Source of the DNA: Candidatus Gastranaerophilales bacterium
GTDB taxonomy: Bacteria > Cyanobacteriota > Vampirovibrionia > Gastranaerophilales > Gastranaerophilaceae
Assembly: GCA_944324945.1 (NCBI GenBank)
Contig: CALUYE010000001.1
Span: 558,001 to 622,000, forward strand
Length of the DNA stretch: 64,000 bases
Direction: 5' to 3'
In this document: piece after piece, positions 5,949 to 48,490 of the stretch
How the letters are laid out: every line of letters begins with the position of its first letter
Position numbering within the stretch: position 1 is the first letter of the stretch
Translations under genes and position numbers: made by a program
The notes under the pieces: model-generated
What the model was told of the DNA's origin: nothing
What the model saw: only the letters and a program-made list of their open reading frames with translations
Database searches by the model: none

Positions 5949-7018
5949 ATTTAAAATACAAAAAAATAATCATATTAATTCCTGTAATTCTTTTAATTAT
6001 TTTTTCAATTTTTGCATTTTTTAAATTTAACCAAACTAAAATCCACCCCTTCCCCAAAATCACCCCTGATTCAGATAATTCAATTAATATAGTATTTACA
6101 ACCGATAAAGAATACTCACCCTACCTTAAAGTAGCTCTAAAATCTCTAATACTCAATAAAAATAAAGATTCAATTTATAATATCTATATCTTATGTATAG
6201 ATTTAAACAAAAAAACACAACAGGAACTTAAGCAATTTGAACAAGATAAGGTTAAAATAAATACTGTTGCGCTTAAAAAGGGTATGTTATCGGATAAAAT
6301 CAAGACAAAAGTTAACATTCATTATGTTTCAAAAGCGGATTTGTTTAAGATTTTTATTCCTGAAATGTTTCAAAATTTTGATAAAATCTTATATCTTGAT
6401 TCAGATATTCTTGTTTTAGGGGATTTATCTTCTTTATATAATACCGATATTCAGGATAAATATATAGCAGCAGTTAAAAGGTATGATTTTTCGCCCAAGT
6501 TAAAGAAAGAAATATTTAACTGCGGTGTTATGCTTTATAACAATAAAAAATGGCAAGAAGATAATATTTCTCAAAAAATAGTAAATACAATAAATGAAAA
6601 TAAAAAAAATACCACAATAACACAGTATCCATTTAATAAGGTTATTAAAAAGAAGGGAGTAAAATTAATTTCGCCTTTATATAATAATATAGTTTTACCT
6701 GAAGCTGATTTTTCACTTTCTTTATATAAAAAAAATTATTCGCCTTTTTGCGATACGATAAAAGATTATAATGATTTAAAAAATAAAACAATAATTGTTC
6801 ATTTTGCGGGAATCCAAAAACCATGGTATAACCCTGATATGGAATTTGCATCTTTATGGTGGCAATATGCTCATCTTATAAACCCTGATTGGAAAGTTGA
6901 GAAAAGAAATATTTTTAAACACGCTCTAAATTCTTTTGCAATTGTTGTAAAATTTATGGAAAATAAGAATTTTTCAGATTACATAAAAAATTTTTATAAA
7001 ACATTCAAAACAAGCTAA
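5942..7018 (+). CDS. GT8-family glycosyltransferase, membrane-anchored, copy 1 of 5
   Basis: First of five tandem GT8 paralogues. A single N-terminal membrane segment (about residues 7-27) and a Pro-rich stem precede the GT8 domain, which starts at INIVFTTDKEYSPYL. The metal- and sugar-nucleotide-binding D-x-D is LYLDSDILVL with D153/D155. The C-terminal H-F-A-G-x-Q-K-P-W is the family metal/substrate motif, and YAHLINPDWKVEKRN is shared with copies 3 and 5. GT8 enzymes are retaining transferases, often adding galactose or glucose to surface glycans. The anchor differs from the one in copies 2, 4 and 5, while the last residues (FYKTFKTS) match copy 4. Substrate unknown; the product is probably an envelope polysaccharide or glycoprotein. 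Confidence 0.9.
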   Translation: MVNLKYKKIIILIPVILLIIFSIFAFFKFNQTKIHPFPKITPDSDNSINIVFTTDKEYSPYLKVALKSLILNKNKDSIYNIYILCIDLNKKTQQELKQFEQDKVKINTVALKKGMLSDKIKTKVNIHYVSKADLFKIFIPEMFQNFDKILYLDSDILVLGDLSSLYNTDIQDKYIAAVKRYDFSPKLKKEIFNCGVMLYNNKKWQEDNISQKIVNTINENKKNTTITQYPFNKVIKKKGVKLISPLYNNIVLPEADFSLSLYKKNYSPFCDTIKDYNDLKNKTIIVHFAGIQKPWYNPDMEFASLWWQYAHLINPDWKVEKRNIFKHALNSFAIVVKFMENKNFSDYIKNFYKTFKTS

Positions 7019-7022
7019 ACCT

Positions 7023-8111
7023 ATGAAAAAACCTCTTCTAACAACTTTAATACTTCTAATCATCCTATCCTTAGGTTTAACTACCATACTTTTTTTAAAC
7101 AATAGACAAGATAGAATCCCCATAATCCCAAAACCAAAAAATAATAACTCAATCAATATAGTATTTACAACAGATAAAGAATACTCACCCTACCTTAAAG
7201 TAGCTCTTAAGTCTTTAATACTTAATAAGGATAAAGACTCTTTTTATAATATCTATATCTTATCTATAGACCTAAACAAAAAAACCAAAGAAGAACTAAA
7301 AACTTTTAAACAAGATGATGTTGAAATTACGACAATTCCTTTAAAGTTGTCGATGTTGAAAAATGTCGGAAATTATAGAATAATTGCAAGATGCCATGTT
7401 TCAAGAGCGGATTTATTCAAATTCTTCATTCCCGAAATGTTTCAAAATTTTGATAAAATTTTATACCTTGATTCAGATATTCTTGTTTTAAAAGATATAT
7501 CAAAAATTTATAACTATGATTTAGAAGATAAATATATAGGTGCTATTCAGGAAAGTTATTTAAATGAAGAATTTAAATACAACTGCGGGGTTATTTTGTT
7601 TGATATCAAAAAATGCAGCGAAAATAATATAACTAAAAAATTGATTCAAGCAAAAAATAATGATAAAAAACATATTTATATAACCCAGCCTTTTTTCCAC
7701 GAAGTGCTTGATGAAACAAAAGTTAAAACCATGCCTTTTGAATTTAACCGTTTTTCAACAACAGATGAAAAAGAATTTAAAAAATTTAATTATAAAGACT
7801 TGTATTATAAAAACGATAAAACGATAAATTCTCTTGATGATGTTGATAAAAGGGCAATTATAATCCATTTTCTTGCGTATAAAAAACCCTGGCAGTACGA
7901 AAAAATACCTTTTGCAAATCAATGGTGGTATTATGCTCATCTTATAAACCCGAATTGGAAAGTTGAGAAAAAAAGAAATACTATACAAAATTTCATACTG
8001 GCGCTTCAAATATCGATTGCAGCAAACAAAGAAAAGAAATTTGCTTCGCTAAAAAGCGCCCTTGATAATTTTAATCGTAACTTTAAATACCTTACAAAAG
8101 AGGATAAATAA
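7023..8111 (+). CDS. GT8-family glycosyltransferase, membrane-anchored, copy 2 of 5
   Basis: This 362-residue paralogue starts 4 bp after copy 1. It has the anchor beginning MKKPLLTTLILLIILSLGL, which copies 4 and 5 also carry at near-identical DNA sequence. D-x-D is at about residues 150-152 (LYLDSDILVL). The block after it (KDISKIYNYDLEDKYIGA) belongs to the type seen in copy 3 rather than in 1, 4 and 5. The substrate-binding half is its own, and the terminal motif is HFLAYKKPW, in which the usual small residue of H-F-A-G is changed. The 5' part uses CTA and CTC leucine codons more freely than neighbouring housekeeping genes, a possible sign of foreign origin. The stop overlaps the ATG of copy 3 by 1 bp. 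Confidence 0.9.
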   Translation: MKKPLLTTLILLIILSLGLTTILFLNNRQDRIPIIPKPKNNNSINIVFTTDKEYSPYLKVALKSLILNKDKDSFYNIYILSIDLNKKTKEELKTFKQDDVEITTIPLKLSMLKNVGNYRIIARCHVSRADLFKFFIPEMFQNFDKILYLDSDILVLKDISKIYNYDLEDKYIGAIQESYLNEEFKYNCGVILFDIKKCSENNITKKLIQAKNNDKKHIYITQPFFHEVLDETKVKTMPFEFNRFSTTDEKEFKKFNYKDLYYKNDKTINSLDDVDKRAIIIHFLAYKKPWQYEKIPFANQWWYYAHLINPNWKVEKKRNTIQNFILALQISIAANKEKKFASLKSALDNFNRNFKYLTKEDK

Positions 8112-9115
8112 TGAAAAAAATAATTTTAATATCCATAGGTTTAATTTTAGTGATTTTATTAACACTTGTTTTACTTATTAAAAATAATAAAACAACAATC
8201 CCCACAATCCCAAAACCAAAAAATAATAACTCAATTAATATAGTATTTACAACAGATAAAGAATACTCATCTTATCTTAAAGTAGCTCTAAAATCTCTAA
8301 TACTTAATAAAGATAAAGATTCAATTTATAATATCTATATCTTATCTATAGACCTAAACAAAAAAACACAAGAAGAATTAAAAACTTTTAAACAAGATGA
8401 TGTTGAAATTACGACAATTCCTTTAAAGTTATCGATGCTTAAAGGAACTATAAAAAATAACGTAAAATATTCTTACAGAGTATCAAATTCCGATTTATTT
8501 AAATTCTTCATCCCTGAAATGTTTCAAAATTTTGATAAAATCTTATATCTTGATTCAGACATTCTTGTTTTAAAAGATATATCAGAAATTTATAATTATA
8601 ATTTAGAAAATAAAATAATAGGGGTTTTACCGGAGAAAACAAATTTTAAAAATGAAGAAAATTCAAAATACAACTGCGGGGTTATTTTGTTTGATATCAA
8701 AAAATGCAGAGAAAATAATATAACCAAAAAACTGATTCAAGCAAAAAATAATGATAAAACAAAAAGATATGTAACACAGCTTGCATACACAAAAGCAGTA
8801 GATATAAAGAATACTAAAGCATTGCCTTTAGGTTATAATTATTTAATAAAAGATGAACAAACTTTGGATAATAAAGATAAAATTTTAATTGTTCATTTTG
8901 CAGGTTTTCAAAAGCCCTGGTATAATCCTGATATGGAATTTGCACCTTTATGGCGGCAATATGCTCATCTTATAAACCCTGATTGGAAAGTTGAGAAAAG
9001 AAATATATCTGCTTGTTTAATATATGCTTATTTGAGTCTTGATAAATCTAAAAAAATGTCAAAAAATATAAGAACTTTTAAAAAGAAATATAATAGGTGC
9101 AGATTGATAAAATAA
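8111..9115 (+). CDS. GT8-family glycosyltransferase, membrane-anchored, copy 3 of 5
   Basis: The shortest copy, 334 residues. It has a distinct N-terminal membrane segment (IILISIGLILVILLTLVLL) joined to the common stem PKPKNNNSINIVFTTD. D-x-D is at about 148-150 and is followed by KDISEIYNYNLENK, related to copy 2. The region between D-x-D and HFAGFQKPW is about 20 residues shorter than in copy 1, so the acceptor pocket probably differs. The C-terminal YAHLINPDWKVEKRN is shared with copy 1. The ATG overlaps the stop of copy 2, and copy 4 begins 2 bp after its stop. A GT8 fold is certain from the motifs; donor and acceptor are unknown. Confidence 0.9.
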   Translation: MKKIILISIGLILVILLTLVLLIKNNKTTIPTIPKPKNNNSINIVFTTDKEYSSYLKVALKSLILNKDKDSIYNIYILSIDLNKKTQEELKTFKQDDVEITTIPLKLSMLKGTIKNNVKYSYRVSNSDLFKFFIPEMFQNFDKILYLDSDILVLKDISEIYNYNLENKIIGVLPEKTNFKNEENSKYNCGVILFDIKKCRENNITKKLIQAKNNDKTKRYVTQLAYTKAVDIKNTKALPLGYNYLIKDEQTLDNKDKILIVHFAGFQKPWYNPDMEFAPLWRQYAHLINPDWKVEKRNISACLIYAYLSLDKSKKMSKNIRTFKKKYNRCRLIK

Positions 9116-9117
9116 AT

Positions 9118-10185
9118 ATGAAAAAACCTCTTCTAACAACTTTAATACTTCTAATCATCCTATCCTTAGGTTTAACTACCATACTCTTTCTAAACAACAA
9201 ACAAAACACAATCCCCATAATCCCAAAACCAAAAAATAATAACTCAATTAATATAGTATTTACAACAGATAAAGAATACTCATCTTATCTTAAAGTAGCT
9301 CTAAAATCTCTAATACTTAATAAAGATAAAGATTCAATTTATAATATCTATATCTTATCTATAGACCTAAACAAAAAAACACAAGAAGAATTAAAAACTT
9401 TTAAGCAAAATGATGTCGAAATTAACACCGTTCCTCTTAAAGTAAAAACGCTTGATAAAATAATAGATAAAAAAATAAATTTCTTCTATGTTTCAAGAGC
9501 GGATTTATTCAAATTCTTCATCCCCGAAATGTTTCAAAATTTTGATAAAATCTTATATCTTGATTCAGACATTCTTGTTTTAAGGGATTTATCTTCTTTA
9601 TATAATACGGATATTCAGGATAAATATATAGCAGCAGTTAAAAGATATAATTTTAGAGGAAACAGAAAAAAAGACGACTATAACTGCGGAGTTATGTTAT
9701 TTAATATTCAAAAGTATAGAAAAGATAATATAGCGCAAAAATTAATCAAAGCAAAGAATAATGATAAAGACGGCAGATCAAGCCAGTATTCATTTAACAG
9801 CGTCATTAAATTAAAAGATGTAAAATTAATTTCGCCAATTTATAATAATAACGCTTACACTGAGGATGAAGACTTTATTAAATACAATTTTAAAAAAACT
9901 TATTCACCCTTTTTAGATAATATAAACAATCTTTTAGAACTTGATAAAAATACAATAATAGTTCATTATATAGGTGCAGATAAACCCTGGCACAAAAATT
10001 CGAATTCAAGATTTAAAGAAAAATGGTGGGAATATTCAAAACTTGTTGATGCTAATATGAAATATAAAAAAAGAAGTTTTATTGAGCGGTTAAAAAATGC
10101 ATATTTTTTAACTTTGCGATCTTCAACAAAAAAAACATTTATACAGTACATTAAAAAATTTTATCACATATTCAAAACAAGCTAA
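9118..10185 (+). CDS. GT8-family glycosyltransferase, membrane-anchored, copy 4 of 5
   Basis: I use the ATG at 9118, where the shared MKKPLLTTLIL anchor begins, rather than an in-frame ATG 21 bp upstream inside copy 3. The 355-residue protein is a mosaic: anchor and stem as in copies 2 and 5; D-x-D (about 149-151) followed by RDLSSLYNTDIQDKYIAAVK as in copy 1; a private acceptor region; HYIGADKPW as the terminal motif; and a tail (FYHIFKTS) like that of copy 1. It lacks the YAHLINPDWKVEKR block found in all the others and has YSKLVDANMKYKKRS at that place. Four bases separate its stop from copy 5. Confidence 0.9.
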   Translation: MKKPLLTTLILLIILSLGLTTILFLNNKQNTIPIIPKPKNNNSINIVFTTDKEYSSYLKVALKSLILNKDKDSIYNIYILSIDLNKKTQEELKTFKQNDVEINTVPLKVKTLDKIIDKKINFFYVSRADLFKFFIPEMFQNFDKILYLDSDILVLRDLSSLYNTDIQDKYIAAVKRYNFRGNRKKDDYNCGVMLFNIQKYRKDNIAQKLIKAKNNDKDGRSSQYSFNSVIKLKDVKLISPIYNNNAYTEDEDFIKYNFKKTYSPFLDNINNLLELDKNTIIVHYIGADKPWHKNSNSRFKEKWWEYSKLVDANMKYKKRSFIERLKNAYFLTLRSSTKKTFIQYIKKFYHIFKTS

Positions 10186-38767: not shown

Positions 38768-38990
38768 CCTCTACATATAAAATTAATAAAAACAATGAAT
38801 TTCTAATCGAATGTCTTACTTTTATTACGGTTAATTCTTAATTATGAAGCCTATCCGTTAATTCGCTGCACTCTTGAAGTTTTGTCCGGATATCCCGGGA
38901 GAGTATTTCTATAATTGTATTTTCAATTTTATTCCGGTGATTTAATATTTTTTTGTATCTATTGTAAAGAAACACATGGTTTGATTATTA
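38768..38990. other. Intergenic stretch left of the transposon with partial end-repeat copies
   Basis: No gene is seen. It contains TGTCCGGATA at 38883-38892, identical to the first ten bases of the inferred left terminus, and GGTTTGATTATTA at 38978-38990, which copies the inner part of the repeat. These may be extra transposase-binding sites (which would move the true end outward to 38883) or remnants of an earlier insertion. A short Sma-type palindrome CCCGGG lies at 38895-38900. Confidence 0.5.
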
Positions 38991-39016
38991 TGTCCGGATA
39001 GTTTGATTATTTTGGA
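38991..39016 (+). repeat. Left terminal inverted repeat
   Basis: Starts TGTCCGGATA and continues GTTTGATTATTTTGGA. Its reverse complement matches the right terminus 47485-47510 at 24 of 26 bases and the internal copy 47320-47344 at 24 of 25. Confidence 0.8.
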
Positions 39017-39183
39017 ATAAAATTGTTTTAAATTTTTAAAACAATGTAAGATTTTTAAAATTTTTTATAAATAAAATGCATTCAAATAATTGTAAATTTT
39101 ATTATAATATTGTGAAAAAACTAGCAAAAAATATATTCAGCTGTTTTATATTAGAAAATATCAGTATTAAGAAAAGAGTAATA

Positions 39184-40407
39184 ATGAAAGTGCAAAATAT
39201 ACGAAGAATAAACAATAATAAAATGTCTTTTAGGGGTGTATTTGCAAATAAAATTAGAGAAACGCTAAGTGGAATAGATAAAAAACATTCCGAAGTCAGA
39301 ACAACTGATTATTTGGATGATTTTCATAAAAATATAGATGCCATAGACAAATGGTATGATACAGAATCACAAAAAGCCAGAGAAGCTTGGTTTTTTAGGA
39401 AAAGCAAGCTAAAACGTATTGATGAACAATATAAGGCTAAAAATGAAGTTTGGAAACAAGATACTGAAATATTTGTACAGGCAAAAGAAGCCCATTTGCA
39501 AGATATAGAACAGCTCCTTGAAAATGCTAAGAAATATAATACCGCTCTTGAAGAGATTAATCGATTAAAAGAAGAAGCAAGAGTTACAGCTTCTACTATA
39601 CAATTGGTAAAGCAACAGCAAGCTGCAAATAAAAATTCTGGTTTTAACAGACTTGCAGGATACGAATCAGAAAAAACAACATTACAAAGATATTTAATTA
39701 ATCCTATTTTTGAAGAACAATCGGGAAAACCAATTAAACTTCCTAATGCAATATTATTCTTTGGTCCGACCGGCGTCGGAAAAACAACTTTTGCAATTGC
39801 ACTTGCTCAAGAAATAAAAGAGGGAAAAGAACCTGTTAAAATAGATATGACTAACGACCCTGATGAAATAATGGAAGAAATTGAAGTTATGTCAAGAAGA
39901 GCAAGAAAACATTATAAAGAAACAGGAGAGAGAACACTTATACTATTAGATGAAGTAGAAACTATTGCAAATGATGATTCAGAAGTTCTTGACGAATTAA
40001 AGGCAAAATTAACTAAAGCATTTAAAGAAGATAAATGTATTTATATTATGACTTCTAACAATCCAACATTAATTTCAAAAGACATTTTAACACCTGACAG
40101 AACAGGGTTGATTGTTAGTGTTGACCCGCCTGATTATGATAATGCTCAAGCTGTAACTGAATTCTATTTTAAGAATCTGAAAAATGTAAATATAGATTAT
40201 AGCAGACTTGCAAGAGTATTAACGCAACAAAAAAATGGAGCATACAGTAATTCAGGAATTGAGGAAATATATAAATCATGCTGTACAATGAAAATTTCTT
40301 CAACTGATGATATAATAAATGCAATTAATTCAACTCAACCTAATATTACAAGAAGCGAACTGACTTCTTATGAAAACGATAAAAATAGATTCTTGGGAAA
40401 TGCTTAA
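39184..40407 (+). CDS. AAA+ ATPase with N-terminal coiled coil and SFRG motif (transposon cargo)
   Basis: I start at 39184 (MKVQNIRRINNNKMSFRGVF) rather than the ATG 108 bp upstream, because the polar leader plus SFRG (residues 15-18) is the pattern of other proteins here. The 407-residue product has a long charged helical region (about 25-165, probable coiled coil), then one AAA+ module: ILFFGPTGVGKTTFAIALA with Walker A Lys200, LILLDEVETIAND with D256/E257, sensor 1 YIMTSNNP, and a lid region ending in YSNSGIEEIYKS. The second-region sequence LTPDRTGLIVSVDPPD could supply an arginine. It is not like MuB or TnsC in layout, so a cargo function (remodelling a partner protein) is more likely than target selection. 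The next gene overlaps nearly end to start. Confidence 0.8.
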   Translation: MKVQNIRRINNNKMSFRGVFANKIRETLSGIDKKHSEVRTTDYLDDFHKNIDAIDKWYDTESQKAREAWFFRKSKLKRIDEQYKAKNEVWKQDTEIFVQAKEAHLQDIEQLLENAKKYNTALEEINRLKEEARVTASTIQLVKQQQAANKNSGFNRLAGYESEKTTLQRYLINPIFEEQSGKPIKLPNAILFFGPTGVGKTTFAIALAQEIKEGKEPVKIDMTNDPDEIMEEIEVMSRRARKHYKETGERTLILLDEVETIANDDSEVLDELKAKLTKAFKEDKCIYIMTSNNPTLISKDILTPDRTGLIVSVDPPDYDNAQAVTEFYFKNLKNVNIDYSRLARVLTQQKNGAYSNSGIEEIYKSCCTMKISSTDDIINAINSTQPNITRSELTSYENDKNRFLGNA

Positions 40408-40408
40408 T

Positions 40409-40834
40409 ATGATTGAAAGTATCAAAAGTAAAATTTCAGAACGTAATTTCAGAATTAATTCTGCTATTATTGCAGGAACTACAGGTATTGGAACTTTGGT
40501 TGGTATTGAAAAAAATAAACTAAATAAAATGGATCTTGATACAGTATTGACAGAAGAATATGGCAAATATCTTGAACAGATTAAAAACAATAATTCGACC
40601 ATTAAGGATAGCGTTAAACTTTCAGAGCAAAACCAAATAGCTAAAGATATTTTTAATGAAAAATGTAGATATGGACATGAGCTCTTAAGCAAAACAAATA
40701 AGAAGAATGTTTTACTTGGAGTTGCAATAGGTGCTACGGTTGGTATTTTAGGTGTTATTTTAAAAAATAAAATTTTTAAAGGAAAGAATAATGAAAATAA
40801 CTCCGATAAAAAATCACTCGATATACGCTCATAA
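40409..40834 (+). CDS. Two-helix membrane protein (transposon cargo)
   Basis: Begins within 2 bp of the AAA+ stop; GGGAA upstream suits the ATG at 40409 (an in-frame ATG at 40400 is also possible). The 141-residue product has two hydrophobic Gly-rich helices, about 17-35 (SAIIAGTTGIGTLVGI) and 105-124 (VLLGVAIGATVGILGVIL), with a charged loop of some 70 residues between. Both ends are basic. No family is recognised. Its last 44 bp overlap the next gene, so all three plus-strand genes are translationally coupled and probably act together. Confidence 0.65.
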   Translation: MIESIKSKISERNFRINSAIIAGTTGIGTLVGIEKNKLNKMDLDTVLTEEYGKYLEQIKNNNSTIKDSVKLSEQNQIAKDIFNEKCRYGHELLSKTNKKNVLLGVAIGATVGILGVILKNKIFKGKNNENNSDKKSLDIRS

Positions 40835-41852
40835 TACTTACTATAAAAATAACATACATAATGGTCGAATAAAATCAAATAACAATTTTTATATTCAATC
40901 ATTCAAAGGCTCTTATGATAGCAAAATAACAACAGAAATATCGAATATAAGAGATTCTTGTAAATATAAAAACGAAATAAAGGCACTAAAAGAAAACTCT
41001 CTTTTAAAAGAGGTATCTTTTGACGATTTTTTAGCTTCTGCAATGAGATTAACAAATAAGTATTCTAGCACTTTCCCTATAAAAGAAGACTTTTTTGAAT
41101 ACAAAGCAAAAAACAGATTTATCGAAATAATTAAAAAATGTTTAAATGACGAAGTAGAAAATTATATAAATCCTGAAAAATTATATGAATTTATCGACCA
41201 TTATTATTGGTGGGGGTTCAATGATAAAAAATTTGGCTCATCAAGTGCATTTACAGTAAATGCAGCGTGTATTTTGCCTTACGCAAAACAATATGAAAGA
41301 GAATTGCAAATATCTAAACTTGAACATTTAACTTCACGTGAAAATACATATAGAAAAGCACTGCAAGTTCAAGAACATGAGTTAAAAAACAAAGAATTTA
41401 TAAATGAAATATATTTTCAACCTTTGATAACCTCAAAAAATGACCCGACAATAAGTTTGCCTAATGCCATTATGATAGAGGGGGGAAATCCAAAAGACAG
41501 TGAAGATCTTATTAGTTGGGCATTGTCGAAAACACCAAGCAATAAGATAGTAGTCGAGAATGACAAATCTTCAAATAATACATTAATTAAAAACAGACTA
41601 AAATCAGCCCTCGAAAAATCCAGACAAACATTTGAGGAATATAGAATTCCAACACTAATATATTGCGAAGAACTTGATAGACTTGTTCAATCCTCAAATC
41701 CTCCGGTTGAAATTGCCTCAATGAAAGCTTTACTATCAAATACATATTCTAAATACGGAGCTACCATAATCTTTTCTACTCAAAATTCAAACAAAATAGA
41801 TAATGTTATAAAACAGCCACATAGAATGAAAAGCATAAACATTGACAACTAA
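40791..41852 (+). CDS. AAA-like pseudo-ATPase with SFKG motif (transposon cargo)
   Basis: The 353-residue protein begins with an Asn/Tyr/Lys-rich leader ending QSFKG (residues 36-40). From about residue 220 it follows the AAA+ core of its neighbour: LPNAIMIEG aligns with LPNAILFFGP, but the P-loop reads GGNPKDSED (231-239) with no G-K-T. LIYCEELDRL stands in the Walker B place and TIIFSTQNSNKID in the sensor 1 place. It stops just after the place where the neighbour has its SRH-like segment and has no lid. So it looks like a catalytically dead relative, perhaps a regulatory subunit in a mixed ring. AAGGA precedes the ATG. The end overlaps the convergent gene by 4 bp. Confidence 0.7.
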   Translation: MKITPIKNHSIYAHNTYYKNNIHNGRIKSNNNFYIQSFKGSYDSKITTEISNIRDSCKYKNEIKALKENSLLKEVSFDDFLASAMRLTNKYSSTFPIKEDFFEYKAKNRFIEIIKKCLNDEVENYINPEKLYEFIDHYYWWGFNDKKFGSSSAFTVNAACILPYAKQYERELQISKLEHLTSRENTYRKALQVQEHELKNKEFINEIYFQPLITSKNDPTISLPNAIMIEGGNPKDSEDLISWALSKTPSNKIVVENDKSSNNTLIKNRLKSALEKSRQTFEEYRIPTLIYCEELDRLVQSSNPPVEIASMKALLSNTYSKYGATIIFSTQNSNKIDNVIKQPHRMKSINIDN

Positions 41853-42175
41853 ATGGAATTATTTTTTTTATCATTAATATAGTGTCTGATAGCCTTAACT
41901 GCTTGAACAGCAGTTACCAATATACAAGCTGCCATTGTTCCAAACAATATTTTTTCTCCTATCGGATTTGATTTCGAAACGTTTTTTGCCACATCTTTAC
42001 TTGCAAATCCATCTCCACATGCAAACCCTAATCCAGCTAATAATAAACCCTCTGCTATACTTGCTTTTAATACTTTATAGTCTTTTATTTCATCTTTTTT
42101 TAAATTGTCAGTATTATTTCCAAATAGCACATTTTTATTAGAATTTATACTATGAGTAAGTTTTTGTATTTGCAT
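41849..42175 (-). CDS. Two-helix membrane protein with VLFG motif (transposon cargo)
   Basis: Start at 42175 (MQIQKLTHSINSNKNVLFGN) with AAGG upstream gives 108 residues; the longer frame to 42211 overlaps the AAA+ gene. The leader carries VLFG (16-19). Two hydrophobic segments follow, about 40-56 (AEGLLLAGLGFACGDGF) and 75-92 (ILFGTMAACILVTAVQAV), and a basic tail. The design matches the plus-strand membrane protein at 40409. It lies 4 bp after the large AAA+ gene on the same strand, so each AAA+ gene in the element has its own small membrane partner. Confidence 0.65.
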   Translation of the reverse strand: MQIQKLTHSINSNKNVLFGNNTDNLKKDEIKDYKVLKASIAEGLLLAGLGFACGDGFASKDVAKNVSKSNPIGEKILFGTMAACILVTAVQAVKAIRHYINDKKNNSI

Positions 42176-42179
42176 AAAA

Positions 42180-44318
42180 TTACCTTTTAAGCTGTTCTTT
42201 TGATTTCTCAAAATATTCTATATCATCTTTTGTTATTTCGGGTTTGGCTTCTCGGATAACACTTGCCAACATATCCGCATTGATTATACCATTATTTAAC
42301 AATTTTGCCATCCCTACCATATTTTTTATTTGACCGTTGCTGTATTTTGAATCATATTTTTTACACATTTCATTGAATATAGACATAATTTTTTCATAAT
42401 CAAAATCATCATTTTCTATATAATATTTAAAAACAGATAAAGCATTTTTGTTGTCAGGCGGATTAAGTGGTATAATAATTGGCATTTTTTCTGAATCTAA
42501 AAACATTTTATCGATTTTATCAGGATAGTTTGTTGTAAAGAACAAGATTGCATGGTATTCGCTTGCTGCATTTTCAATCAATTTTGCAATTTTTTCATTA
42601 TATTCTTGCTCTTCCTTATTCTTTGCAGGCGTCATAAAGGCAGTGCATTCGTCAACAAGAATAATAGAATTTCTTTGTTCGTTTTCCCAATGCTTTTTAG
42701 CTTCATTAAGTTTTTTTAGTAATCTCTGATATGCTTTATCTTTTCTGCTCGTAGTAGGAACTCCCAGAGGATTCATACCGAATTCGTCCGCTATTGCGCC
42801 TGCAAATGTTGTTTTTCCGTTGCCTCTTGGGCCAAAAAACAATATTGAATTTACCAAATCTTCACTATCGCAAGTATTGATATCTGATAATGAACTTAAA
42901 TAAGCTTTTAAGAATCCTTTTTCTTCATCATATCCTGCAATTTTTGAATAACCAAACGCATTGGATTTTGCAAGATTCTGATAAATTTCATTTTCTTTTG
43001 TAAGTATATCTTGAATATCTTTTTGGTTTGGTATATTCGGAATATTTTTATTTTTATCTTCCAAATCCTTGCTTTTCTTGTTTTCTTCATTGATTTGACG
43101 TTGATGTTCGGCTTTCTTTTGATTTATTTTTTGGTTTTCTCTTCTTTCCCAAGCTCTTGCAAAATTTCTTATTTTTGAATTAGCAAAGTTAGAAAATTCC
43201 ATCAGAAAAGTTCTGTTTTTAAATTGCCTTGTAAAGACTTCAGAAGATATTTTATCCATATTCATTTTTGTATAAAATTCATCAGCATACTTATCCAACA
43301 TTTGAGATACTTCCGGATAATTAACAACATTTTCGGATATATCTATTGCTGTATCAACAGCAGCTTTAGATATTAATGCATTATCTGCAATATCAAAAAT
43401 TTCATATACAGCAGATGTTATGATTGCATTTTTTATAGCTTGTTTAGCGATTTCTTTTTGGTTTACTTTTTGATGGTTTAATTTTGTAAAAACATTCATT
43501 TCGGCCATTTGCAATAGAAACATAGTAGTAGCTTTTGGCATATCTCTGCGCACAACATGCTCCATTAGCATTCCTAAAAATTCTTTATGTTCTCTTGGAG
43601 TATTTTTTAATGCAAATTTTACTGCTTCTTCGTTTTCTAGGTCGCCAATTGTATGTGTAGCATCAAAACCATGAAAAATTAATTTTGTACCAAAATATGA
43701 AACCAATCTTTGGAATTGTGCCATATTTGTCATTGTGCCATTTTTTACTTGTTTAATAAAACCTCTACCCATTTTTTCAGTAACGGCCGCACTTAAACCG
43801 CCATTAATACCCCTTACAGCACCTTCCGAAACAGGAGTAGATGTACCGCCACTTGCAGCTTCGGATGCAATGCTTGCTAATGCTATAATTTTTTTTGAAC
43901 CTTCGTAACCTATATATAATCCTTGCGAATATTCTATTGCAGCATGTTGGACTGCTGCCATAAAGGGTATTTTTAAATAATTTGCCATATAAGCAAACAT
44001 TAAAAACTGCGTTCCTCTTAGTGCCCAAGCATCTGCACCAACTACTGTTGCCTTGCCAGCAGCAGCAGAAATACTACCACAGGCAGCAGCAGCACCATGT
44101 ACAATCATTTTGCAATACTTTTCTTGTTCAGGGGTAATCATTGAACCAAAACTTATATTATTTTTATAAGGCATGATTCTTTGTAACTCAAATCTGTCTT
44201 TGTCATTATATTTATTGATTTGTGTTGAATACGTGGAATTTATATGGTTATTAATTAAGCGATTTTTATTATATAAATAATTATTTGCAAAAACTGCTTT
44301 TGGTGATGAAATTTTCAT
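42180..44318 (-). CDS. Large AAA+ ATPase with Ala/Gly-rich helical N-terminal half and ISFGS motif (transposon cargo)
   Basis: A 712-residue protein. A polar leader of 54 residues ends in ISFGS (55-59). Residues 65-200 are Ala/Gly-rich with hydrophobic helices (VHGAAAACGSISAAAGKATV, FLMFAYMANYLKIPFMAAV, IIALASIASEAASGG), possibly membrane-active. A helical region follows, then a coiled coil at about 390-430 (QKINQKKAEHQRQINEENKK), and then an AAA+ module: ILFFGPRGNGKTTFAGAIA with Lys502, IILVDECTAFMTP with D556/E557, sensor FFTTNYPDKID, and PLNPPDNKNA at the position of VDPPDYDNA in the smaller AAA+ protein. The C-terminal lid (YSNGQIKNMVGMAKLL) also matches it. The two ATPases are therefore paralogues on opposite strands. 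Confidence 0.8.
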   Translation of the reverse strand: MKISSPKAVFANNYLYNKNRLINNHINSTYSTQINKYNDKDRFELQRIMPYKNNISFGSMITPEQEKYCKMIVHGAAAACGSISAAAGKATVVGADAWALRGTQFLMFAYMANYLKIPFMAAVQHAAIEYSQGLYIGYEGSKKIIALASIASEAASGGTSTPVSEGAVRGINGGLSAAVTEKMGRGFIKQVKNGTMTNMAQFQRLVSYFGTKLIFHGFDATHTIGDLENEEAVKFALKNTPREHKEFLGMLMEHVVRRDMPKATTMFLLQMAEMNVFTKLNHQKVNQKEIAKQAIKNAIITSAVYEIFDIADNALISKAAVDTAIDISENVVNYPEVSQMLDKYADEFYTKMNMDKISSEVFTRQFKNRTFLMEFSNFANSKIRNFARAWERRENQKINQKKAEHQRQINEENKKSKDLEDKNKNIPNIPNQKDIQDILTKENEIYQNLAKSNAFGYSKIAGYDEEKGFLKAYLSSLSDINTCDSEDLVNSILFFGPRGNGKTTFAGAIADEFGMNPLGVPTTSRKDKAYQRLLKKLNEAKKHWENEQRNSIILVDECTAFMTPAKNKEEQEYNEKIAKLIENAASEYHAILFFTTNYPDKIDKMFLDSEKMPIIIPLNPPDNKNALSVFKYYIENDDFDYEKIMSIFNEMCKKYDSKYSNGQIKNMVGMAKLLNNGIINADMLASVIREAKPEITKDDIEYFEKSKEQLKR

Positions 44319-44337
44319 ATAATATTTTTCCTAAAAA

Positions 44338-47067
44338 CTATTTAGCACCAAATAAATTTTTAACTAAATTTTCAAGAAAATCAGGAATGCCGTTATGATT
44401 TGCATCTATTTCCATAAAATCAGGGATTAGATTTCCATTATGATCACCTTCGAGAAAATCAGGAATACCATTATGATTTGCATCTTGCATTGCTTCTTCT
44501 ACACTAAGGTCTTTTTCCAGATAATCCGGAATTCCATTTTTATTCAAATCAGCTGTTAATGGATCAACGGTATATGAACTTGTATCCGGCAGTGTTTTTT
44601 CTGGTACATGTAAATGACTCCTATCTAGCATATAAGGACGTATACGCATACCAAACTCTGGGTGATTTTTTTCAATATATTGTCTTAAATATTCATTATT
44701 AATTGTTTCTGTAACATTTTCTTTGCCGGCAATATTTCTAAATTGTGCAAATATAGGATTACTATCAATTACTTTCATATATGAAGCAAAATATGCGTCA
44801 CCATCTTTATCTTTTGCAAGTATCATATCATTGCCAAATATATCTTTCATGTTTTCAGTTTCGGGCATTGAATCTTTCTTAAATAAGCCCCTTAAGAATG
44901 TACCGATTTTGTCTATAGTGCTTTCATCATTGGAATTGTTGGAATTATTATTTCTGTGGTCTCCTCTTAACCACTCACCTAATACGCCTAATCTGCTTCC
45001 TTCTCTTACATTTTCTGAAGAAGGCATATTTGACCATCTGTCATCCCAAGGGCAGGTAGGATATCCCGAACCAAAAGCGGGAATTGCCATAGGTTGTAAA
45101 TAATTACCATCCATAATTGCAGATACTTTTTCGCTAGGGTCAACAAATATTCCATGTATTGCATCAACAAACTTATTATTTCCTAGGTCAATATCTACTG
45201 AACCATCAAAATTCTTAAATATACCGTTTTCCCAATCTACAAAATCATAATTATCTGCATCAATTTTTATACCAGTACCTTTGAACTCAATAATTTGTTC
45301 ATCACTATCTATATTTACCAAATTGGATTGAATACCATTTTCTAATACTGAATAACCATCACTATCAAAAAATAATTCTTCAGCCCCTTCTCCCATTTTG
45401 ACCATTGCGGCAGATATTGCCAATCCCAATAGAAATGGTTTTCCTTTTATACTTAAATTTTTTATTGAATCACTTCTATAATGAAGTCCGAGAAATGTTA
45501 TTCCGTGCTTATTAATAGTTCTAACTTCAGTTTTCATCATTAAATCATTTAAGATATTTTTATCGATTTCTTGTTTTTGAACACTATTTAAACATTGTTT
45601 AATTGATATTTGAGGAGCGTTCGGACAAGGTTTTGAATTGTGAAAATCTAGGTAACAATCAATGTATTTTATTAATTCTTGTATAGTTGGAATGTAATTA
45701 TTAGTGAGTTTTTTGTGCATATCTCTATGGAGTTTTTCTCCTCGTTTCATCCAAGCAGGTTTGTTTTCAATACTTGTTCCAATGTAGCTTGGCATTAACT
45801 TCTCGAACTCTTCTTGAAATTCAAGGAAGAATCTTTCAATAACTTTTGCTCTTGCGTTATAGGGTTTAGCAAATACTGATTTAATACCAAGATTTGCATA
45901 GATTCCATTAAACCCTTCTTCATCAAAATCACAGGATTGAAAATATTTTGCTTTAAATGCTTTTCCGTTATCTTGGTAAATGACTTTGGGAATAATACCT
46001 AAATTAATAATGGCATTTCTTAATGCCGAAGCTATACATTGAGTGTTTTCACTCATCATAATTTCATATCCGACTAATGCTGTTGATTTCCAGTCTAAAA
46101 AACCGACAAGTGTTGCTCTTGTTGGTTTTCCTGTAAATGGATTAATTACTTGAAAGTTTAGAGTATGTCCATCAGCAATAAGTACATCACCAACTTCAAG
46201 TTTAGAAATATCTCTTTCAATATATGCTTCCACTTTATCGTGGTATGCCTTTTCACCTTCTCTAAATAGTATCCACCTTGAATAATTATTCTTTTTGTAG
46301 TGCTCAGCATATCTTCTAAATGTAATAACGTGAGGAATATTTTCAATTCCTTTCTTTTCAAGTATATGTTGAGTTAATTTTATCGCTTTTGTAACACTGA
46401 ATTTATTTGGATGTAGAAGAAATTTAATAAATATATCTTTCATTTCTTGAGTTAAAATTGTATTATATTCACCCTGTTTTGTATATTTGTAATTAGGTAA
46501 AAGCACCCTATAATCTTCACTATCTTCATATGCCCAAATCCATCGATGAAGTGTGCCTATTGAAATACTTCCAATAAATTTATGTATCTTTGGAAGATAC
46601 ATTCCACTATTGTATAAATCTAAAAATATTGAATCGGCTTCTTTTTTAGTTTTGTATTTAGTTCTCATATTCTGAAGAGCTTTTACAATATCTACTCTAG
46701 CAAGTGCCGTTAATTTTGCACTCTCTGTTATGAAGTTTTTATTGTTGATATTATTAATGGGAACTAATGCGGTGCAATTTGATTGAGTTGCTTCTTTAAT
46801 TAATTCATCCTGGAATTTTTCTTGAATTTCTGGTTCTAGAGATGAGTATAATATCTCGTATGATTTACCTCCAAAAACTTTAACAACACGTGCTACATAT
46901 TTACCTTTTTGAATTGCTAATCTTAGTGAACGATTGCTTTTCAACCCTTTTAATTCTGCTATTTTATTAATAGGGACGAACGAGTTAAAAGTGGTGCTTG
47001 CACCAACTTTTCCCAGATGCGAGGAGCTAAAAGCTTTGCTTATATCTATATATTCTTCGTTTTTCAT
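44338..47067 (-). CDS. Mu-type DDE transposase fused to a calcium-binding-repeat module
   Basis: Residue numbers from the ATG at 47067 (a GTG 9 bp earlier is possible). Residues 30-90 form a Mu-like N-terminal DNA-binding domain (INKIAELKGLKSNRSLRLAI). The integrase core has the acidic triad D299 (LIADGHTLNFQV), D366 (VIYQDNGKAF) and E411 (KVIERFFLEF). The Mu C-terminal barrel begins (HGITFLGLHYRS, to about 532) and then breaks off. What follows is unlike any transposase: LSIKGKPFLLGLAIS (an F-x-G-like motif and hydrophobic run), an acidic beta-rich region, an Asn/Ser linker, and four terminal D-x-N-x-N-G-I-P-D-F/Y-L-E repeats like thrombospondin type-3 or EF-hand calcium loops. Part of the barrel that MuA uses for assembly is missing, so activity is doubtful. 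The gene lies next to the right end, as expected. Confidence 0.82.
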   Translation of the reverse strand: MKNEEYIDISKAFSSSHLGKVGASTTFNSFVPINKIAELKGLKSNRSLRLAIQKGKYVARVVKVFGGKSYEILYSSLEPEIQEKFQDELIKEATQSNCTALVPINNINNKNFITESAKLTALARVDIVKALQNMRTKYKTKKEADSIFLDLYNSGMYLPKIHKFIGSISIGTLHRWIWAYEDSEDYRVLLPNYKYTKQGEYNTILTQEMKDIFIKFLLHPNKFSVTKAIKLTQHILEKKGIENIPHVITFRRYAEHYKKNNYSRWILFREGEKAYHDKVEAYIERDISKLEVGDVLIADGHTLNFQVINPFTGKPTRATLVGFLDWKSTALVGYEIMMSENTQCIASALRNAIINLGIIPKVIYQDNGKAFKAKYFQSCDFDEEGFNGIYANLGIKSVFAKPYNARAKVIERFFLEFQEEFEKLMPSYIGTSIENKPAWMKRGEKLHRDMHKKLTNNYIPTIQELIKYIDCYLDFHNSKPCPNAPQISIKQCLNSVQKQEIDKNILNDLMMKTEVRTINKHGITFLGLHYRSDSIKNLSIKGKPFLLGLAISAAMVKMGEGAEELFFDSDGYSVLENGIQSNLVNIDSDEQIIEFKGTGIKIDADNYDFVDWENGIFKNFDGSVDIDLGNNKFVDAIHGIFVDPSEKVSAIMDGNYLQPMAIPAFGSGYPTCPWDDRWSNMPSSENVREGSRLGVLGEWLRGDHRNNNSNNSNDESTIDKIGTFLRGLFKKDSMPETENMKDIFGNDMILAKDKDGDAYFASYMKVIDSNPIFAQFRNIAGKENVTETINNEYLRQYIEKNHPEFGMRIRPYMLDRSHLHVPEKTLPDTSSYTVDPLTADLNKNGIPDYLEKDLSVEEAMQDANHNGIPDFLEGDHNGNLIPDFMEIDANHNGIPDFLENLVKNLFGAK

Positions 47068-47319
47068 CGCAGACACACATTAGCTCGGAATTAAATGTAT
47101 TGGAACATCATATCCTACGTTTTGGCAACAACTCTTAACATACTTACGCAATTAAAATTGCTTGTATGTTAGAGTTTTGCATCCATCATTCAAAAGCTCG
47201 CTTGTGCTCGCTAAGAATGAGTGTATGTCATTCATGTATCATTAAAATTTCCAAAACCTTGTGTTAATTTTTCCGAAACTTGGTGTTAATTTTTTAATTC
47301 CTTGCACAACTGGACTATA
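47068..47319. other. Upstream region of the transposase with inverted repeats and a short direct repeat
   Basis: No gene is seen. An imperfect hairpin spans 47137-47170 (outer arms AACATAC/GTATGTT, inner GCAATT/AATTGC). A second pair of arms, TCATTC and GAATGA, lies around 47187-47219. Two near-copies of a 24-base unit, each ending GTGTTAATTTTT, lie at about 47251-47295. They may be operators or accessory transposase or host-factor sites; none matches a motif I can name. Confidence 0.4.
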
Positions 47320-47344
47320 CCAAAATAATCAAACTATCCGTACA
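47320..47344 (-). repeat. Internal copy of the transposon end repeat (right side, inner)
   Basis: Reads CCAAAATAATC then AAACTATCCGTACA. On the opposite strand it matches the left terminus at 24 of 25 positions. Confidence 0.75.
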
Positions 47345-47382
47345 CCTTAAAAATGGTGCTAAACTCAGCTATATTAAGAAAA

Positions 47383-47400
47383 AATCAAACTATCCGTACA
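47383..47400 (-). repeat. Internal copy of the transposon end repeat (right side, middle)
   Basis: AATCAAACTATCCGTACA, the outer 18 bases of the repeat; the inner part has diverged to a run of A. Spacing from the other two right-end copies is 56 and 110 bp. Confidence 0.7.
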
Positions 47401-47484
47401 GTCCGAAAAAAGTCCATTTCGGCAGTTTGATTTTTTTGGTAAACTTAATTTTCCGACCCGAAAACGCCCTCGCAGAGCGGGCTG

Positions 47485-47510
47485 TCCAAAATAATCAAAG
47501 TATCCGTACA
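47485..47510 (-). repeat. Right terminal inverted repeat
   Basis: Ends ...TATCCGTACA at 47510. It is the reverse complement of the left terminus except at two positions. The next bases, AATCAAACCGG, again resemble part of the repeat (GGTTTGATT on the other strand), which is also found just outside the left end. Confidence 0.8.
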
Positions 47511-47570
47511 AATCAAACCGGTCGTTAAATTACAACAAAAGCAAAGCGGTTGTATCCAGAATTAGCCATA

Positions 47571-47596
47571 AAAAAGAGCCTTTTTAGGCTCTTTTT
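47571..47596 (-). terminator. Rho-independent terminator of tRNA-Met
   Basis: A 10-bp stem (AAAAAGAGCC, 47571-47580, with GGCTCTTTTT, 47587-47596) around a 6-base loop. On the minus strand it is followed by a T-run, 9 bp downstream of the tRNA 3' end. Confidence 0.8.
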
Positions 47597-47604
47597 AGAA
47601 ATAA

Positions 47605-47676
<72 letters not shown>

Positions 47677-47848
47677 GTGGCGAATTGATAAGTTAATTGT
47701 ATCAGTTAAATATTATTTTTCAAGTGGAATTTTTGTTTGAATATTAAGAAATGTTAACAATATTTTAATTAAAAAGGCAATTTCAAAGGGCAAAAAGTTT
47801 TTATTTAATTGTAAGGTTAGTTTATATATTTTGTAGTGGAGGTTAGTT

Positions 47849-48490
47849 ATGTTAAATTCGACTTCAGCATTTTCACCAAAGGGAAATGGTCTGTACCTGG
47901 GTCAAAATTATGGCGGGTATAGCGGTGTTGGTAATACAGGTTCTCTTTTTGGCGGATATGGTACATCTTCAAGAATCACAAGCAGGGTAGCGAGCTATTT
48001 AAGAACAGAATATGCAAACACAATTGAAAAAGCTCAAAGAAATCTTGCAAACGGTGAATTTGATAAGGCAATGTCAAATATTGAATCGTTAAGAGAACAT
48101 GCAAAAGAGTATGCTGCCGAATTGGGCGGCACTATTGATGATGAACAAATTTCAACAGCTTTAAATAAGGCGGGAGCTGATTTTGAAGGTTATGTTGATG
48201 AAAACAGCAAGGGTTCATTCGCAACAGGTTTATTTAACGGTATTCCTTTAGTTGGTTTATTCTTTGAATCTTATTCAAAAAATGAAATACAGGCTAAATT
48301 AGGAAACGATGATGTAAGACTTTCCGATACTTTAAAAGAAAGCGCAGGTAAGGTTATAAGCGGTGCAGGTGTTGGTGCTGCTGTAGGTTCTGTTATAGCT
48401 CCGGGTGTCGGTACTCTGATCGGCGCTATTGCGGGTACAGCTTTAGCATTCGGACAAAATATGGTTAAAGATTGGGTTAATGCGCAGTAA
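47849..48490 (+). CDS. Glycine-zipper protein of unknown function
   Basis: A 213-residue protein with GGAGG-type ribosome binding site (GTGGAGG). The N-terminus is Gly/Ser/Tyr-rich (about 1-45, including SAFSPKG), a helical region with paired Ala/Glu follows (50-130), and the C-terminus is a glycine zipper: GAGVGAAVGSVIAPGVGTLI then GAIAGTALAFG, ending in DWVNAQ. Glycine zippers insert into membranes and oligomerise, and are seen in pore-forming and outer-membrane-associated proteins. No signal peptide is present. It is monocistronic, ending in a perfect palindromic terminator. Confidence 0.6.
   Translation: MLNSTSAFSPKGNGLYLGQNYGGYSGVGNTGSLFGGYGTSSRITSRVASYLRTEYANTIEKAQRNLANGEFDKAMSNIESLREHAKEYAAELGGTIDDEQISTALNKAGADFEGYVDENSKGSFATGLFNGIPLVGLFFESYSKNEIQAKLGNDDVRLSDTLKESAGKVISGAGVGAAVGSVIAPGVGTLIGAIAGTALAFGQNMVKDWVNAQ

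Follow-up and report, generated by a model that had tools for sequence, protein, structure and literature searches.

The 64,000-nucleotide window analyzed here (positions 558,001 to 622,000 of contig CALUYE010000001.1, from the Candidatus Gastranaerophilales bacterium assembly GCA_944324945.1) contains a compact six-gene module, identified from the sequences at its borders as the cargo of a Mu-like transposon, in which two AAA+ ATPases are encoded beside an AAA-like protein that has lost its ATP-binding motifs (Table 1). The module proteins are named AAA1, TM1, P, TM2, BIG, and C6; A denotes active paralogues and P the pseudo-AAA proteins, and the loci compared with the window carry L numbers. 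Coordinates of the open reading frames (ORFs) agree with a preliminary description of this region, in which the plus-strand genes overlapped end to start (TM1 overlaps AAA1 by 38 bp, and P overlaps TM1 by 44 bp) and the minus-strand genes TM2 and BIG were 4 bp apart; the two sets are convergent, with overlapping stops. The five genes of that description are real, but it omitted the transposon ends and a sixth gene, C6, fused to a transposase in ORF 44338-47076. Its two two-helix membrane proteins hold for TM2, with two clear hydrophobic segments (Kyte-Doolittle means of 1.8 and 1.6), and in part for TM1, where one segment is clear (2.3) and one is weak (1.2). AAA1 and BIG score 51 and 53 bits against Pfam AAA (cut-off 21), and both have Walker A, Walker B, the sensor-1 Asn, and a lid; the YSNxxI lid motif that they had been noted to share is indeed common to both and is found across the family. 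The top NCBIfam match of the active AAA proteins is CdvC (1.4e-13, far under the cut-off). P has no significant match in Pfam, NCBIfam, or PADLOC.

Table 1. Features of the module and of the transposable element that carries it (window coordinates).
Feature	Coordinates	Strand	Description
AAA1	39184..40407	+	Active-type classical AAA ATPase: Walker A GPTGVGKT, Walker B DE, sensor-1 N292, Arg306 at the arginine-finger column, lid YSNSGI
TM1	40370..40834	+	Small membrane protein, predicted from hydrophobic segments; relatives elsewhere combine a pseudo-AAA core with hydrophobic segments
P	40791..41852	+	Pseudo-AAA+ protein, putative arginine-finger donor
Former Walker A of P	41481..41504	+	GGNPKDSE, residues 231-238
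Arg345 of P	41823..41825	+	Arginine-finger column of the second region of homology (SRH), 14 residues past the sensor-1 column
TM2	41849..42175	-	Small protein with two hydrophobic helices, ATG start; adjoins BIG in relatives
BIG	42180..44318	-	AAA ATPase; conserved helical N-terminal domain (~residues 60-400); Walker A intact; Lys611 replaces Arg at the finger column
C6	44338..45438	-	Sixth module protein, the C-terminal part of ORF 44338-47076; acidic NGIPDFLE repeats
MuA-like transposase part	45439..47076	-	Same ORF as C6; truncated, in-frame fusion to C6
Mu-like transposable element with module	38963..47534	.	~8.6 kb, TG...CA termini; imperfect ~50 bp inverted repeats at both ends
Left element end	38963..39016	+	TGTAAAGAAACACATGGTTTGATTAT... 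GGATAGTTTGATTATTTTGG; same end type in L096, L217, L218
Right (transposase-side) element end	47316..47534	-	Two copies of the GGATAnTTTGATTATTTTGG end repeat; homologous ends in L046, L058, L104, L201, L208, L210

The alignment of P to AAA1 continues to the end of P, with GGNPKDSE in P standing where AAA1 has GPTGVGKT. The absence of a P-loop had been recognized in the preliminary description, which held that the rest of the domain was kept up to the SRH-like segment. In the window P, the sensor-1 Asn and most of Walker B are gone as well, and the chain stops 8 residues past the arginine-finger position, leaving no lid. Homologues with an intact Walker A, which that description proposed to look for, are absent from the main P clade (0 of 43 non-redundant cores). 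Most members of the non-redundant P set have lost the Walker B acids, and most have lost the sensor-1 Asn. The lid motif occurs in 0 of 48 P compared with 37 of 53 A, and 13 of the 48 P chains stop 7-11 residues after the SRH arginine.

That arginine, at the exact sensor-1 spacing, is the sole SRH or active-site position to survive in P. Its column, placed by alignment, is the one that we take to correspond to R315 of FtsH and R362 of p97. It holds Arg in 39 of 44 P cores and in 19 of 47 A cores of the non-redundant set (Fisher 2.5e-6); as A and P sequences are related, the column counts are not independent and this p-value is only indicative. In a larger set the column ranks 2 of 123 in P (90% Arg) and 67 of 121 in A (36% Arg), the Walker A Lys being 100% conserved in A. 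Most of the few P cores that lack the arginine are either degenerate second half-domains or a further partner, and many active partners have Ile, Val, Ser, Ala, Cys, or Lys in its place, as BIG does in the window with Lys611. Lys312 of P is as conserved as the arginine, being present in 94% of cores. Given the relatedness of P and A, a phylogenetic tree is the better control. The 43 P cores form one clade (support 100/99), and two more groups that lack the P-loop and keep the arginine (L214/L216 and L115/L231) are nested in the A clade beside their own active partners. As far as sequences can tell, this shows that a dead, arginine-keeping partner arose independently at least three times. Conservation across genera, the single clade, and the constrained arginine led us to drop the idea that P is a decaying pseudogene; by the same sequence comparisons, P is a conserved pseudoenzyme family, order-wide.

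A profile of the P cores finds matches in 114 of 286 genomes and 27 of 50 genera of the order, the weak ones among these possibly being active paralogues; across 244 genomes sampled from the phylum as a whole, matches at E <= 1e-10 are restricted to the order. Whether the genes usually lie apart, a second check proposed with the preliminary description, is answered by the active paralogue found within 5 kb of 78 of the 86 strong P matches. The A-TM-P set is found again in other genera, and L096-L106 repeat the convergent layout that includes BIG, TM2, and C6. C6 homologues are separate proteins upstream of BIG in other six-gene copies, the one in L096 having EF-hands or EF-hand-like repeats, and hydrophobic segments flank the P cores in L098, L109, and L112-L114. 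The two kinds of AAA domain are further tied together, at the level of sequence, by a domain swap: the N-terminal domain of BIG, joined to an A core in the window, is fused to a P core in L047 (genome G039).

The AAA nature of P rests on profile alignment together with a predicted structure. A Protein Data Bank sequence search with the P profile gave weak matches only. AlphaFold models P with confidence over residues ~225-350; the core of this model (residues 193-353) is matched by large domains of AAA+ proteins (Foldseek E of 2e-6) and superposes on residues 205-371 of p97 D1 (VIA Z of 15.2, 155 residues, 3.0 Å). In the model of BIG, the AAA domain with its lid matches Vps4, p97, and spastin with Z of ~22 over ~240 residues; the N-terminal domain is predicted to be helical at low confidence and has no Pfam match.

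An arginine from the neighboring subunit completes each AAA+ site in trans; given this, a subunit that cannot bind ATP and keeps only the finger arginine is, by analogy, best explained as an activator. We therefore propose, with a probability of about 0.6, that the module proteins form a heteromeric AAA+ machine whose active site is split, the dead P being the subunit that would give an arginine finger in trans near the membrane. The sequence basis of this proposal consists of the loss of ATP-binding motifs, the conserved arginine, the loss of the lid, gene linkage, repeated origin, and the element ends, from which we infer hetero-assembly, trans-activation, membrane placement, and substrate. 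P, binding no ATP and lacking a lid, would dock on an active subunit and put Arg345 into its nucleotide pocket, so that hydrolysis would be switched on only when the hetero-assembly forms. In the window copy, this arginine would most likely be used on BIG, which has none. TM1, TM2, and the helical N-terminal domain of BIG would anchor the assembly at the membrane, and C6 may be a membrane-linked, perhaps calcium-binding, partner or client. The inactive regulatory subunit of the preliminary description is thus upheld by the lost ATP-binding motifs and sharpened to a putative arginine-finger donor, and the mixed ring at the membrane that it envisaged is plausible, with hydrophobic segments, including those borne by dead AAA domains of relatives, providing the membrane link. 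The aromatic pore-loop motif (Ar-phi-G) between Walker A and Walker B is absent in 17 of 17 A. Its absence argues against a threading unfoldase and makes it more likely that the machine would switch or remodel a complex of the membrane or envelope. The membrane-type partners and the acidic and EF-hand-like repeats of C6 suggest remodelling of an envelope complex as its role.

Several observations, in addition to the interdependence of the column counts, weigh against this proposal. No partner is visible for some P and A matches, several of which lie on short contigs. The first helix of TM1 is weak, and P in the window, where TM1 is separate, has no hydrophobic anchor of its own. With Arg306 in place, AAA1 has no obvious need of P, and the arginine is likewise present in about a third of A cores. 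The arginine of P could also have been kept for another contact. P might then be a structural or inhibitory pseudo-subunit or adaptor, with the arginine making a non-catalytic salt bridge or client contact; the retention of the arginine by AAA1 and by 36% of A cores fits such a role, as does a Lys312 column conserved as highly as the arginine. However, among SRH and active-site positions only the finger column survives, at exact sensor-1 spacing and in three dead-partner lineages, and the finger arginine is gone from many neighboring active ATPases, which makes a purely structural role for P unlikely in our judgment.

The transposon cargo of the preliminary description was well founded, as Mu-like ends and a MuA-like transposase bracket the genes. 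The transposase-side terminus, TGTAATTTAACGACCGG...GGATACTTTGATTATTTTGG, is an imperfect inverted repeat of the sequence at 38963, just left of AAA1, and the ~450 bp upstream of the transposase start are found again at other sites and in other genomes; the recurrence of the inverted-repeat ends of both sides in other loci sets the span of the element at ~38963-47534. ORF 44338-47076 is matched by phrog_310 (MuA transposase family) over residues 31-537 (E of 1.3e-90), and from ~residue 547 it matches a separate protein of ~400 amino acids, C6, encoded directly upstream of BIG in L096, L098, L099, L103, and L104. Both its transposase half and its C6 half are incomplete, and the ORF therefore looks like a deletion fusion inside the element. 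Other module copies adjoin more Mu-like phage genes (MuB, GemA, gpG, and a D12-class methylase). A 5-bp target-site duplication was not found, the flanking bases at the two ends being unequal; an old or rearranged insertion would lose such duplications. A search by neighboring genes for an empty site turned up none that was cleanly syntenic. In four genomes (L201, L208, L210, and the window at 47077-48490), glycine-zipper genes of the 47849 family are found no more than ~1 kb from Mu-like element ends, and these genes are possibly a preferred insertion neighborhood.

A 3,292 bp copy of the module is 97.9% identical between L046, on a second contig of this genome (8123-11412), and L096, from another genus (6732-10022). 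The match extends little past the module, in draft genomes of several contigs, and identity of this degree confined largely to the module points to its recent transfer, alone, between genera. The L046 copy is partly decayed, with its AAA gene split by stops and BIG reduced to a remnant, and the genes of the L096 copy are complete. A search of genome contigs with the A alignment returned mostly archaeal and other AAA proteins, together with one Candidatus Gastranaerophilales record that holds an A-type gene, element-end sequence (79% over 192 bp), and a RecN sharing 47% identity with the RecN of the window, which makes it very probable that the order surveyed here is Gastranaerophilales. Phage and plasmid records gave no match, nor did searches of viral contigs with single window proteins; the BIG alignment matched one viral contig, where it found a remnant. 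This IMG/VR contig (L232:5905-11348) carries a diversity-generating-retroelement-like reverse transcriptase and a lysozyme-like gene, and the remnant, of BIG, TM2, and P, comes after the latter.

The mobility of the module bears on the possible conflict or defence function suggested for it in the preliminary description, a function that could take the form of an anti-phage or superinfection-exclusion system on Mu-like elements. Carriage by such elements, the apparent recent transfer between genera of the module alone, and the remnant after a lysozyme-like gene on L232 are all compatible with it, as are about five inspected copies beside restriction-modification (RM) or Ssp genes (type III RM in L099, SspC/SspD in L106, and type I/IIG-like RM genes in L056 and L058). 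Most other inspected copies, however, lie among housekeeping-looking genes, no effector domain was recognized in the module, and PADLOC gave no specific match for its proteins, only weak generic AAA matches (5e-7 at best); the suggestion of defence is thus not supported, and we consider it doubtful. That AAA1, BIG, and P have a part in transposing the element, as MuB or TnsC do for theirs, is highly improbable: MuB itself is an AAA+ ATPase and the element has a MuA-like gene without a MuB-like one, but many of the sites where module genes are found show no transposase (L109, L112, and L113), L096 has a separate MuB-like gene (phrog_296), and the A domains are classical AAA of the p97/Vps4 type.

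Two further features of the surrounding proteins were observed. A short Asn/Lys-rich leader ending in an [IV]SF[KG]G-like motif starts many of them, in the window at 39184, 40791, 42180, 41849, 37964, 17741, and 25441, and at many other loci (e.g., L096:12014-13366 and L107:4465-4758). Across 475 ORFs, the motif occurs ~0.09 times per 20 residues in the first 60 residues compared with ~0.016 further in, and ~47 carriers lie outside the module matches; from its position, the leader may be an order-wide N-terminal sorting tag. M16-type-peptidase-like proteins, one with a weak Pfam M16_C match, adjoin A/P modules in L052 (5447-6799) and L053 (5831-7162).

Dead AAA+ subunits as such are already known, and the delta-prime subunit of clamp loaders contributes an arginine finger in trans. 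Delta-prime and RFC5 resemble P as ATPase-inactive AAA+ subunits of heteromeric AAA+ assemblies (PMC3331839); however, clamp loaders are pentamers held by a collar that act on DNA, whereas P has neither collar nor lid and is encoded with membrane-type partners. Vps4/CdvC, p97/Cdc48, and spastin share the AAA core and lid of AAA1 and BIG, but the A proteins differ from them in lacking aromatic pore loop 1, in often having lost the finger, and in having a dead paralogue as partner. McrB is likewise a bacterial AAA+ NTPase activated by a separate protein, McrC, but McrC, a nuclease, acts by remodelling the active site of McrB, which brings its own arginine finger (PMC6624300).

The closest parallel is the eukaryotic pairing of TorsinA with LAP1 or LULL1 at the endoplasmic reticulum and nuclear envelope (PMC4358337, PMC4999309, PMC5425593). 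LAP1 has an AAA+ fold without Walker A, has lost Walker B, has no C-terminal domain, and carries a transmembrane helix and a strictly conserved Arg563 at the finger position; it and LULL1 activate Torsin, which lacks an arginine finger and aromatic pore loops (PMC4358337, PMC4999309, PMC5425593). In both systems, an ATPase devoid of aromatic pore loops is paired with a partner of AAA+ fold that is ATP-dead, lacks Walker A and B and the C-terminal small domain, and keeps the finger arginine; both have a membrane link, here a putative one through hydrophobic segments. Many active partners in the order lack their own finger as Torsin does. LAP1 and Torsin are not among the nearest 50 structural matches listed for P. 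Torsin belongs to the Clp/HCLR clade, whereas the best matches of the A domains are classical AAA (PF00004, p97/Cdc48, and Vps4), which excludes the module ATPases from the Torsin family. The module is moreover bacterial and partly on mobile elements, its AAA1 keeps the arginine, and its dead partners arose several times. Full-text literature searches, incomplete in coverage, found no bacterial pair like Torsin-LAP1.

So far, it is mainly from the eukaryotic Torsins that a dead partner has been known to activate an AAA+ ATPase by providing an arginine. We put it at even odds that a similar division of labor evolved at least three times in one bacterial order, with classical AAA ATPases leaving the finger to a dead, lid-less paralogue in obligate membrane hetero-assemblies spread as transposon cargo. 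If so, the module would provide a first concrete role for a large unannotated gene family of gut-associated, non-photosynthetic cyanobacterial relatives and would mark a route from homo-oligomeric motors to obligate hetero-assemblies, and convergent bacterial pairs, with the finger retained by some ATPases and lost from others, would allow comparative tests of the principle. The likeness to Torsin-LAP1 is convergent, not homologous, while the mechanism, by analogy, may be the same.

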